Virus record (IMG/VR): IMGVR_UViG_3300045999_011059
Span: 1-28,003 of that record
DNA: 28,003 nucleotides
Direction: 5' to 3' (one strand)
DNA from: a virus
Shown: positions 1,359-25,968 of the stretch, one piece after another
Numbering within the stretch: the stretch's first letter is position 1
Layout of the letters: each line of letters starts with the position of its first letter
Notes under the pieces: model-generated
What the model saw: the letters and a program-made list of their open reading frames with translations, nothing else
The model's database searches: none
What the model was told of the DNA's origin: nothing
Position numbers and translations under genes: made by a program

Positions 1359-1619
1359 GTTAATGACAATCAGGGCGCTCTCAGATAACAACTATCCGGG
1401 CAAAGCTGAAACAAATTGCCAGGCATACAGTTAGTTACAGCGTACAGAATCAATCTCTGGCAGATAACTAACCCCGCCATCGCTCGGATCGACGCCGACG
1501 TGGGGGGATAGTGTCCAGAGTCCTGCGTACCTGCTCTAAGGACAGATACGCTGGACAAGATTCTGAGGCTGTAGCTAACTGCAACCGGACAAGTTACGGT
1601 GACGACTACCGTTGCGTCG

Positions 1620-1690
1620 CTAGTTGTAGAGCACGACCCTACGGTTCAGTTCTAGTTGTAGGGCACGACCCTACGGTTCAGTTCTAGTTA
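1620..1690. repeat. 32-bp tandem direct repeat, two copies plus 7 bases
   Basis: The unit starts CTAGTTGTAG and ends ACGGTTCAGTT. Copies at 1620-1651 and 1652-1683 differ at a single base (A or G), and a third partial copy (CTAGTTA) follows. The period of 32 bp is close to three helical turns. Confidence 0.85.
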
Positions 1691-1752
1691 CAAACTGCTC
1701 ACCTAGTTAAAGGTGGCAGCTGACAACGTGCCCGCTGACAAGTCGGCATCGT

Positions 1753-1788
1753 GCACACATAGCCGGTCGGGTTGCAACCGTAGTGTGC
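1753..1788. repeat. Inverted repeat GCACAC...GTGTGC enclosing a GGTTGCAACC palindrome
   Basis: GCACAC at 1753-1758 pairs with GTGTGC at 1783-1788, and the interval contains the perfect 10-base palindrome GGTTGCAACC. The element could be a protein-binding site or part of a folded RNA. Confidence 0.5.
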
Positions 1789-2305
1789 TCGGGGGATCGC
1801 TCGCGCCCCTGGTTCCATCTTGTGACGATGCCTGTTATGTAGAACCGTTAGCTATGCCTTAGGCTTTCCGTGCAAACTATCTCAGCACAGCTAACGTATT
1901 CAGTTATCGAGGTTCTCTCACCTAGATACCTTTAAGATCCCGCCGCTCACGTTCCGGCACACCATGCCTGCCCTTGCCTACACTTCGGGGAAGTACTCCC
2001 TACCATCAGCGGCAGACGCGCGGGGCCAGTTCGGCCGTCGCGGGTTCTCTCGGGTTGTCTAGGTGCCCTGGCGGCGTGGCTTGCGCCCCGTTCCTCCAGT
2101 GACCCCAAGATCGCTCAGAACCGGTTCGCCTGTCAACCACCTACAGGGGATTCTCAGCCAGTCTGCGGATTGGCACACAGGGCCAGGGTTCCCACGCAAT
2201 AACAGGAACCGCACGCGGCGCGCGCAAATACCACGAGATCCCTTGCGCTGTCAAGCGTTGAAACGAAACGAAACGCAGGGTGCACCCCAGTACATCTGAA
2301 CTAAT

Positions 2306-2352
2306 ACAACTTCACAAAGATAAATGTACAACTTCACATTGCTAAATGTACA
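2306..2352. repeat. 22-bp tandem repeat, iteron-like
   Basis: Two adjacent 22-base units, 2306-2327 and 2328-2349, share ACAACTTCAC at the left and TAAATGT at the right, with five variable bases between. A third ACA follows. Each junction forms the palindrome TGTACA. A 22-bp period is two helical turns, as in initiator-binding iterons or tandem operators. It lies about 240 bp upstream of the rightward genes. Confidence 0.6.
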
Positions 2353-2594
2353 TCAGCGCAGCGCTAAGTGACACACAGGGCGCGCTTATGTATACGCAAC
2401 GTGCACGCAACCTTCCTTTTTTTTATATAGGCGCCTTACTCGACGGCGCCGGCGAGAACCCTTTATAAATTTTGCTGGCAAATCGGCATGAAACCTTTTG
2501 GAGTGTTAACATAATAACAGGCGCCCAGCGCGCAGCGATGTCAGGTACACGTTTTACCAGGTGTGCCTAGGCTGTAACTATCGGCTTGAGGCTT

Positions 2595-9464: not shown

Positions 9465-9537
9465 GCGCATCTAGCAATCTGGTGAATGCAGTCGACTCAT
9501 AATCGACCTTAGGTGAGTTCAATTCTCACGATGCGCA
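9465..9537 (+). tRNA. tRNA with CAU anticodon (Met, or Ile2)
   Basis: A complete 73-nt cloverleaf: acceptor GCGCATC/GATGCGC (7 of 7 pairs), D-arm with GG in the loop, anticodon stem GTCGA/TCGAC with loop CTCATAA (anticodon CAT at 9498-9500), variable loop of five bases, T-arm GTGAG-TTCAATT-CTCAC, discriminator A. No CCA is encoded. The acceptor lacks the initiator-type 1:72 mismatch (G1-C72 is paired). It could be an elongator Met tRNA or an Ile2 tRNA whose C34 is changed to lysidine; sequence alone does not settle this. Confidence 0.92.
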
Positions 9538-9647
9538 TGTTTAGTGTGCGTGGAAACAAAAAGAAGGGCCATCGCGGGCCTTATTGTTCTCGTTCTTGCG
9601 CAGGTAAAGCTGGCCGAGTAGTCCAACGGAAGAGACAGGCGACTTAA
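9531..9647 (+). CDS. Zinc-knuckle mini-ORF or gene remnant overlapping two tRNA genes, 38 aa
   Basis: The frame opens at ATG 9531 in the tRNA-CAU acceptor strand and stops at TAA 9645-9647 in the anticodon loop of the next tRNA. Its centre reads KKKGHRGPYCSRSCAGKAGR, clearly the second half of a zinc-binding knuckle like that of the 9200 gene (GPYCTYHC). Either it is a real 38-aa protein sharing DNA with two tRNAs, or it is the remnant of a zinc-finger gene interrupted by tRNA insertion. It lacks the first CxxC pair. Confidence 0.45.
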   Translation: MRMFSVRGNKKKGHRGPYCSRSCAGKAGRVVQRKRQAT

Positions 9648-9687
9648 AATCGCTCCAGTGTGGGTTCGACTCCCACCTCGGCTACCA
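9612..9687 (+). tRNA. tRNA with UAA anticodon (Leu-type codon UUA) and short variable arm
   Basis: The cloverleaf is acceptor GGCCGAG/CTCGGCT (one G-U pair), D-loop AACGGAAG, anticodon stem GGCGA/TCGCT with loop CTTAAAA (anticodon TAA), variable loop CCAGT, T-arm GTGGG-TTCGACT-CCCAC, discriminator A and an encoded CCA (9685-9687). The anticodon reads UUA, normally Leu, but bacterial Leu tRNAs have a long variable arm and this one has five bases. Similar short-armed UAA tRNAs occur in other phages. The charged amino acid is therefore not certain. Confidence 0.9.
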
Positions 9688-14888: not shown

Positions 14889-15170
14889 GTGTCTAGTTAT
14901 CTGTTTAGCAATCGGTCCGATCGCGAGATTTACTTAAGTCTCGCTAACAGACCGCGTAAGCGGGATGCAACGAGTCGATACCGCGGGGTCTCTAAAACCA
15001 CGAATCCAAACAAACCGTTTCGTGCGGCACTAAAGCACAAAGGGCAGCATCACTACCTCGGGTCTTATGAGACTGAGCTTGAGGCTGCGAAGGCCTACAA
15101 CAAAGCCGCGCTGCGGATCGTGGGAGAGTACGCTGTGATCAACGATCTGTCAGACGTTACAGATCGCTAA
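14889..15170 (+). CDS. AP2-domain DNA-binding protein, 93 aa
   Basis: Residues about 30-88 form a single AP2/ERF domain: SRYRGVSKTT, a central KPFRAALKHKG strand, HHYLGSYETELEAAKAYN and an ALRIVGEYAVIND ending. In phages the domain usually accompanies an HNH nuclease as the DNA-recognition part of a homing endonuclease. Here only the AP2 part is present, so a DNA-binding role without cleavage is likely. It starts with GTG and lacks a Shine-Dalgarno sequence. Its position right behind strong RNA stems is noted under findings. Confidence 0.85.
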   Translation: MSSYLFSNRSDREIYLSLANRPRKRDATSRYRGVSKTTNPNKPFRAALKHKGQHHYLGSYETELEAAKAYNKAALRIVGEYAVINDLSDVTDR

Positions 15171-24447: not shown

Positions 24448-25968
24448 ATGCCGAGCCGGGAAACTTTCGCTTACCGCCGCGGCGCTCAGATGCGTGCTGT
24501 GCGCGCACAAGAGAGCACAGTAAACTCTCTTGATTCTATTTACTCTAAAGCGGCTGACGATTTTCAGACGTTTTGTACGATTCTGGACAAACCCCCAGCA
24601 AAACACATGCTGGAGTGGCATCACCACCTGATAACGGGAGAATCCAACAAGTACTTATTAGATATTGCTGGACCTAATCTCGATATTCTGAGCCCTCGTG
24701 GCAGCGCTAAGTCTACTGTACTTAACTTATTTACTGCTTGGATCATCGGTAGGCATACAACCGCTCAAAGACCGCTACAGATTATCTATGTTTCTTACAA
24801 CATCGCCACGGCTATTCCTAAAAGCCGAATTATTCGGCAGCTGATCGACTCTCCTGAGTTCCGTAAGATTTTTCCGCGGGTGCAGCTGAAGTCCGGCATG
24901 CAATCGGACATCGGTTGGTCGATTGATTTCGATTATGCGGGTATTCCGCGAATCGGTGATGAGGAATTCACCTTGAGGGCGGCTGGTCTTCGGGGTTCTA
25001 TTACTTCTAAGCGTGCACACCTAGTTATTGTTGATGACCCTATTAAATCCAGTGCTGATATTAAGAACCCGGCTATCCGGGATGAGATGAACAACAACTG
25101 GTCGTCCGTTATTGCACCGATTATCTTCGAAGGCGGTCGTTCTATCTGTCTGGGGACCCGCTTCCACCCTCTGGACATCCATAAAACCATGTTTATCCCT
25201 GCTAAAGGGTGGAAACAGGTGACTCAGGAAGCTATTACATACGATAACAAGGGGGAACCCGTCAGTTACTGGCCTGAACAGTGGTCCGCTGATTATCTAT
25301 TGGGTCAGAAAGAGCTGGACCCCGTGGCTTTTGCGTATCAGTACCAGCAACAGCCCGTGATGACCTCTGATTTGGTCGTTTCGCCTGATTTGCTCGTTAA
25401 AGGAGAGGTTGTTACTGAATTCGACAGCCTTGCAGTCGGTATTGACCTCTCCGCGAGCAAAAATGAGACCAGCGATTACACAGCCTTCGTTTTAGGGGGT
25501 CGTTTAAAGGATAAATATTACATAATCGACGCGCATCAGTGTCGCTCTATAGGAAACCTTGAAAAAATAGATCTTTTGTGCGATATGTTGCTTGAATGGG
25601 GCATTCTGACGCAACACGACGGGCAGTACATGCCTACGTACTCTACGGTTACCCTCGTAGTTGAATCAGTGGCATATCAAGCCTCCCTTGCGGCGGATTT
25701 ACGAAGAGTTTTGATAAACGACAGGGATTTAGGTAATTTACATATCCACGAGGTCAAGGGATTTCGAGGGGACAAGATCGCGCGCTTCCGCGGAACTTTA
25801 GGTTTGCTAGAAAACAAGAAAATTACGTTCAATAAGTACCGGAAGTTCGATGCTTTGTTCGATCAGCTGATCAACGTCGGTGCCACAGCGCATGATGATC
25901 TTTTAGACGCTTACACTTGGTTGATTACTTTCTTGCAGCGTCGAGGGGAGTTTTCAATTGAGTACTGA
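24448..25968 (+). CDS. terL: Terminase large subunit, 506 aa
   Basis: The packaging motor: ATPase plus nuclease. The ATPase has a Walker A-like PRGSAKST (83-90) and Walker B HLVIVDD (191-197). The RNase H-like nuclease has AVGIDLSAS with Asp333, VVESVAYQ with Glu406, and AHDDLLDAY with Asp483, Asp484 and Asp487. All core residues are therefore present. Length is usual for TerL. ATG 24448 is used; ATG 24490 is an alternative. No small subunit gene is recognised beside it. The stop overlaps the following TTG start by 11 bases, so a glycosyltransferase-like gene is coupled to the packaging gene. Confidence 0.93.
   Translation: MPSRETFAYRRGAQMRAVRAQESTVNSLDSIYSKAADDFQTFCTILDKPPAKHMLEWHHHLITGESNKYLLDIAGPNLDILSPRGSAKSTVLNLFTAWIIGRHTTAQRPLQIIYVSYNIATAIPKSRIIRQLIDSPEFRKIFPRVQLKSGMQSDIGWSIDFDYAGIPRIGDEEFTLRAAGLRGSITSKRAHLVIVDDPIKSSADIKNPAIRDEMNNNWSSVIAPIIFEGGRSICLGTRFHPLDIHKTMFIPAKGWKQVTQEAITYDNKGEPVSYWPEQWSADYLLGQKELDPVAFAYQYQQQPVMTSDLVVSPDLLVKGEVVTEFDSLAVGIDLSASKNETSDYTAFVLGGRLKDKYYIIDAHQCRSIGNLEKIDLLCDMLLEWGILTQHDGQYMPTYSTVTLVVESVAYQASLAADLRRVLINDRDLGNLHIHEVKGFRGDKIARFRGTLGLLENKKITFNKYRKFDALFDQLINVGATAHDDLLDAYTWLITFLQRRGEFSIEY

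Follow-up and report, generated by a model that had tools for sequence, protein, structure and literature searches.

The gene-free interval at 1359-2585 of our window, a viral fragment of 28 kb (28,003 nucleotides), is probably a leftward early control region that encodes a modular, structured early-leader RNA. At the onset of infection, host RNA polymerase would start at a sigma70-type promoter motif (2136-2107) and produce a minus-strand leader of ~700-850 nt ahead of the early operon, in the order hairpin D, domain B, a cassette slot with domain C, tandem hairpins, domain A and a GATC tail. Transcription, its extent and the nature of the RNA as a single transcript are inferred from the sequence. 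Following the predicted transcript from its 5' side, the features are:

2400-2525, no strand assigned: conserved block with CCTTTTTTTTATATA, outside the RNA; a similar block exists in S-EIV1
2107-2136, minus: sigma70-type promoter motif TTGACA-18-GATCTT (TTGACN-18-TACCTT in relatives), from sequence comparison
2068-2099, minus: hairpin D, predicted 5' end of the RNA, read from the sequences
1920-2064, minus: domain B, 44 predicted pairs, starting with linker ACCTAGACAAC, from covariation
1842-1894, minus: extra hairpin of the window's cassette type, preceded by a second linker, ACCTCGATAACTGAATA, from the minimum-energy fold
1741-1837, minus: domain C, a three-way junction with conserved loops, common to T7-like cyanophages, from a covariance model and covariation
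1618-1690, minus: 32-nt tandem repeat forming two hairpins, GTAGGG-TCGTG-CCCTAC/CTCTAC, from repeat finding and folding
1429-1580, minus: domain A, closed by AGTTAGCTACAG/CTGTAACTAACT and including the palindromic hairpin A, from covariation
1331-1358, minus: second promoter-like site, TTGTCA-16-TAAGAT, conserved in part of the relatives
1310-1333, no strand assigned: conserved cluster of three GATC sites at a regular spacing of exactly 10 bp (1310, 1320, 1330)
1260-1296, minus: hairpin between GATTC direct repeats, directly upstream of the first early gene, from the alignment
919-1224, minus: first gene of the leftward early operon (101 aa, weak match to phrog_1845)

The initial annotation had described the interval as gene-free, placed between a leftward early operon and a rightward virion block and carrying two unrelated tandem repeats. 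This was borne out, the genes on the leftward side being small. Only short overlapping ORFs of 51-78 aa are present, and the alignment of relatives over the interval (~59-84% identity) contains frame-breaking indels and swapped hairpins, with no common reading frame seen. The repeats are a 32-nt unit at 1620-1689 (2.2 copies, score 133), which corresponds to the tandem hairpins within the RNA, and a 22-nt unit at 2305-2352 (2.2 copies, score 75) in a weakly conserved segment (~2150-2400). GC content rises to 0.60 across 1751-2250. Among the palindromes and stems that had also been pointed out, the local stems are real, whereas the long-distance inverted repeats of 12-14 nt are chance-like; a long-distance stem pairing ~2070 with 1411 in the single-sequence fold was dropped, as it is not conserved. 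The feature also extends to ~1260, to the left of the start first assigned to it.

The terminase of the window (24448-25968) matches phrog_38 and has relatives encoded by 377 stretches of the viral collection; among cultured phages, Synechococcus phage S-EIV1 is the nearest, with a terminase identity of 52%. S-EIV1-like cyanophages, ~20 relatives in number, keep the interval as non-coding DNA. It was matched in 12 of 44 records, eight of which showed homology across most of 1200-2520 in blastn searches with short words, and a search for further relatives via a neighbouring protein gave only five loci. In the alignment of relatives, invariant blocks alternate with variable ones. The long relatives (80-87 kb) have the interval as their divergence point, with a leftward block of ~25-30 kb on one side and a rightward block on the other. 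We presume that the leftward block is early because its counterpart in S-EIV1 holds DNA polymerase A, a single-strand DNA-binding protein and thymidylate synthase. Absence from close relatives, which the initial annotation would have counted against the feature, was found in part: S-EIV1 lacks domains A, B and C but retains the T8 block. The RNA thus is a clade feature, dispensable for a virus of the S-EIV1 type. The block at 2400-2525 is probably a rightward control element.

On both strands, the fold of a 666-nt core outperforms 20 of 20 dinucleotide shuffles (z −4.8 minus, −4.3 plus), and the stability of single-sequence folds is alike for the two. The consensus fold of domain B, with double changes at 15 pairs (0 of 500 shuffles), reached −94 on the minus versus −82 on the plus strand, with 12 versus 27 A-C cells. 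Domain A has 33 pairs, 12 of them with double changes, and by itself leaves the strand undecided (−81.3 versus −79.5). The variable position of the tandem hairpins forms a G-U pair on the minus strand only; when 1618-1690 was folded in isolation, the two repeat copies paired with each other instead. A reading as plus-strand RNA, with its end at the T8 run (2417), was rejected, since folding, wobble pairs and promoter all favor the minus strand and the T run is not preceded by a conserved stem. Between the RNA and the early operon we found no intrinsic terminator, but the second promoter-like site instead.

Hairpin A (1508-1562 in the window) is a 39-bp near-palindrome, TGTCCAGMGTAYCTG-N9-CAGRTACKCTGGACA, whose left arm carries an insertion in the window copy. 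Its center measures 9 nt in all 26 matches, though the pattern allowed 6-11. It stands alone in several phage types (L150:3641-3679, L154:10651-10689, L139:3548-3586), at sites that include the 5' side of a terminase gene and the gap ahead of a tail-fibre gene, and a near match lies by the end-to-start junction of the S-CBP4 record.

The first link to T7-like phages was a 75-nt piece matching S-CBP1 and DSL-LC07; the latter, a lake metagenome assembly, has been placed in the Autographiviridae beside S-CBP1, 3 and 4 (PMC10611076). Pattern scans found domain C in 94 stretches, hairpin A in 29 and domain B in 26, a few of these being chance matches. Loci with domain C split into a T7-like and a window-type group, and 72 of the T7-like loci have thyX, terminase, RNA polymerase or antirestriction genes in common with DSL-LC07. 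The stems of the domain are P1 (GGTCGT/ACGACC), P2 (GTAGT/ACTAC, with many compensated versions), P3 (AGGTT/GACCT) and P4 (GCGG/CCGC). In an alignment of 43 T7-like sequences, from which the window family was left out, its 22 pairs are 96.9% paired and 12 of them show double changes (138 cells); covariation was 0.405, whereas slid versions gave at most 0.072 and none of 500 shuffles came near it. Only the loop of P4 and some positions in its arms were prescribed by the search pattern, so the covariation of P1-P3 was not built in. One P3 pair (U-G 39, A-U 3, U-A 1) is standard on the minus strand only.

A covariance model trained on T7-like cyanophages, with no window-family sequence in the training set, matched the window copy at 1741-1837 with 77.3 bits (E 2.9e-18) and also six window-family relatives, whereas it found no domain C in S-CBP3, S-CBP4 and S-EIV1. 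Compensated stems are likewise present in domains A and B.

Both lineages carry a leader unit upstream of their early genes. In T7-like phages, promoter, hairpin, linker, domain C and GATCATGG lie just 5' of the first early gene, and the whole leader comprises only ~200 nt, its end adjoining that gene. The ATG annotated inside GATCATGG is possibly not a genuine start, because a stop follows soon after in several relatives. T7-like loci (e.g. L113:4939-4982, L251) also have a hairpin with conserved loop GAGCCACA and a compensated stem, sometimes duplicated, with TTAGATCATGG between it and the first early gene.

The promoter motif at 2136-2107 would start the RNA near 2100; both start and strand are deduced from sequence. 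Of 21 window-family leaders, 19 have TTGACN-18-(TACCTT or similar) ahead of hairpin D, and shuffles gave no match; this motif was written only after the sequences had been inspected. For the T7-like leaders, the standard consensus T[TA]GACA-17/18-TATNNT was present in 40 of 54 (shuffle mean 0.1), mostly at a similar distance. The hexamers stay constant while the spacer between them changes, which is the pattern expected of promoters. The stem of hairpin D shows compensated changes (CTGG/CCAG, CTGAAGC/GCTTCGG, ATCGATC/GATCGAT).

Downstream of hairpin D, the domains behave as exchangeable cassettes between fixed linkers, as judged by comparing leaders. Linker ACCTNGACAAC lies 5' of domain B in the window, in a variant form 5' of the window's C slot, and also 5' of domain C in T7-like phages. 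Relatives with a 93-97% identical domain B often have unrelated slots, with local scores of 29-38 versus 97-160 for a shared slot, and one relative (G002) is 97% identical to the window right beside the slot, where the match ends. Among cultured phages, S-CBP1 carries domain C and S-CBP3 and S-CBP4 carry another cassette, the host of all three being Synechococcus CB0101. S-CBP4 has a promoter at 423 (TTGACA-17-TATGGT) and the linker at 464, then a cassette differing from C, with the GAGCCACA hairpin (568) and GATCATGG (592) after it. The linker is also present in S-CBP3, together with a cassette related to that of S-CBP4. Both cassettes fold as three-way junctions in single-sequence folds, with z-scores of only −1.8 and −0.9. 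The leader unit of S-CBP4 (423-600) overlaps in part with a minus-strand gene annotated as 'hypothetical protein' (257-652), which may be spurious.

Searches against Rfam at family gathering thresholds yielded only two tRNAs in the window and nothing in 20 related loci, the best weak matches scoring 17.7 bits (threshold 39) and 15.4 bits (threshold 60). The tRNAs are a tRNA-Met (9465-9537), which is 100% identical in G029 and 99% in G033, and a tRNA-Leu (9612-9687). Elsewhere in the window, a small protein (14889-15170, SRYRGVSK...) presumably resembles an AP2-type DNA-binding domain. The hairpin A pattern had no matches in 84,980 bacterial genomes and the domain C pattern five in ~85,000, every one without the rest of the domain; on these pattern scans, a host origin of the RNA was rejected. 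A plasmid search gave no match. We found no paper describing the leader among the open-licence literature, and the genome papers of S-CBP1 and DSL-LC07 (the latter PMC10611076) make no mention of promoters or of intergenic or non-coding elements.

As to function, we tentatively rank first an action in cis, directed at either the transcription machinery of the host or the early transcript as it emerges, by analogy with the anti-pausing and antitermination of HK022 put RNA. We place it there because promoter, hairpin, linker, folded domain and tail directly 5' of early genes are constant across two unrelated lineages. In HK022, putL lies just downstream of PL and putR ~270 nt downstream of the PR start (PMC9378689), so that structured RNA stands behind phage early promoters; in the window, structured RNA follows a conserved promoter motif and precedes presumed early genes, both promoter and early timing being predicted. 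Yet put comprises ~70 nt with two stem-loops, whereas the cyanophage leaders have 200-850 nt, three-way junctions and exchangeable cassettes; and put works by binding RNA polymerase so as to suppress pausing and termination, which for the leader, with its cyanobacterial hosts, would be a putative activity.

Two close rivals are similarly tentative. The leader might be an abundant early non-coding RNA acting in trans, processed off or separate from the early mRNA and binding a host factor in the style of GOLLD and ROOL. Its length, its ornate multi-domain build and the tail with a second promoter-like site before the first gene would agree with this, and exchangeable cassettes would be apt if the target in the host changes quickly; however, no large phage RNA was matched in Rfam, and the T7-like leader is short and ends beside the early gene. 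GOLLD and ROOL are, as here, large ornate phage RNAs of unknown function (PMC12286853), but they often occur near tRNA islands, whereas the cyanophage leader lies at an early promoter and has no Rfam match.

Alternatively, it might act in cis after transcription, shielding the early mRNA from host ribonucleases or gating translation like a riboswitch or thermometer. It adjoins the first early genes, with a further conserved hairpin near the start of the first, but neither an Rfam riboswitch match nor conserved masking of the ribosome-binding site was seen. The structured cyanophage RNAs manA, wcaG and PhotoRC-II are often found in 5' UTRs (PMC2864571), a likeness to the window RNA; they adjoin metabolic, exopolysaccharide and photosynthesis genes, and the window RNA differs in position and architecture and has no Rfam match.

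An element acting as DNA, be it a replication origin, a packaging site or an array for protein binding, with inverted repeats that merely resemble RNA stems, is improbable: GATC sites every 10 bp, the T8 block and the palindromic hairpin A, with its fixed spacing and arms varying independently at two positions, would fit one, but wobble pairs specific to one strand and the compensatory changes found within three-way junctions, which are asymmetric, argue against it, as do the GC-skew and the position of the interval in long contigs. Of the three readings first offered, a large structured RNA is therefore the one supported, by covariation, strand-specific G-U pairs and the conserved promoter motif. 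A replication origin, for which GC-skew had been proposed as a check, is disfavored, as six relatives of 80-87 kb have no consistent extremum or switch at the site. Nor is a packaging or genome-end site supported, the interval being internal in the long contigs G013, G029, G030 and G037; G013 has a 127-bp terminal overlap and thus closes on itself away from the interval, while some shorter contigs end in or near it.

The leader unit of promoter, hairpin, linker, three-way junction and tail is common to two cyanophage lineages that otherwise share little, which suggests that both aim at one target in the host and that RNA cassettes are traded between them. Conceivably, these promoter-proximal leaders with exchangeable cassettes represent an undescribed class of phage RNA, traded between unrelated cyanophages, that would reprogram host RNA polymerase early in infection. 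Versions of the leader occur in three phages that are cultured on a single laboratory strain of Synechococcus, so the role of a large structured phage RNA is directly testable.
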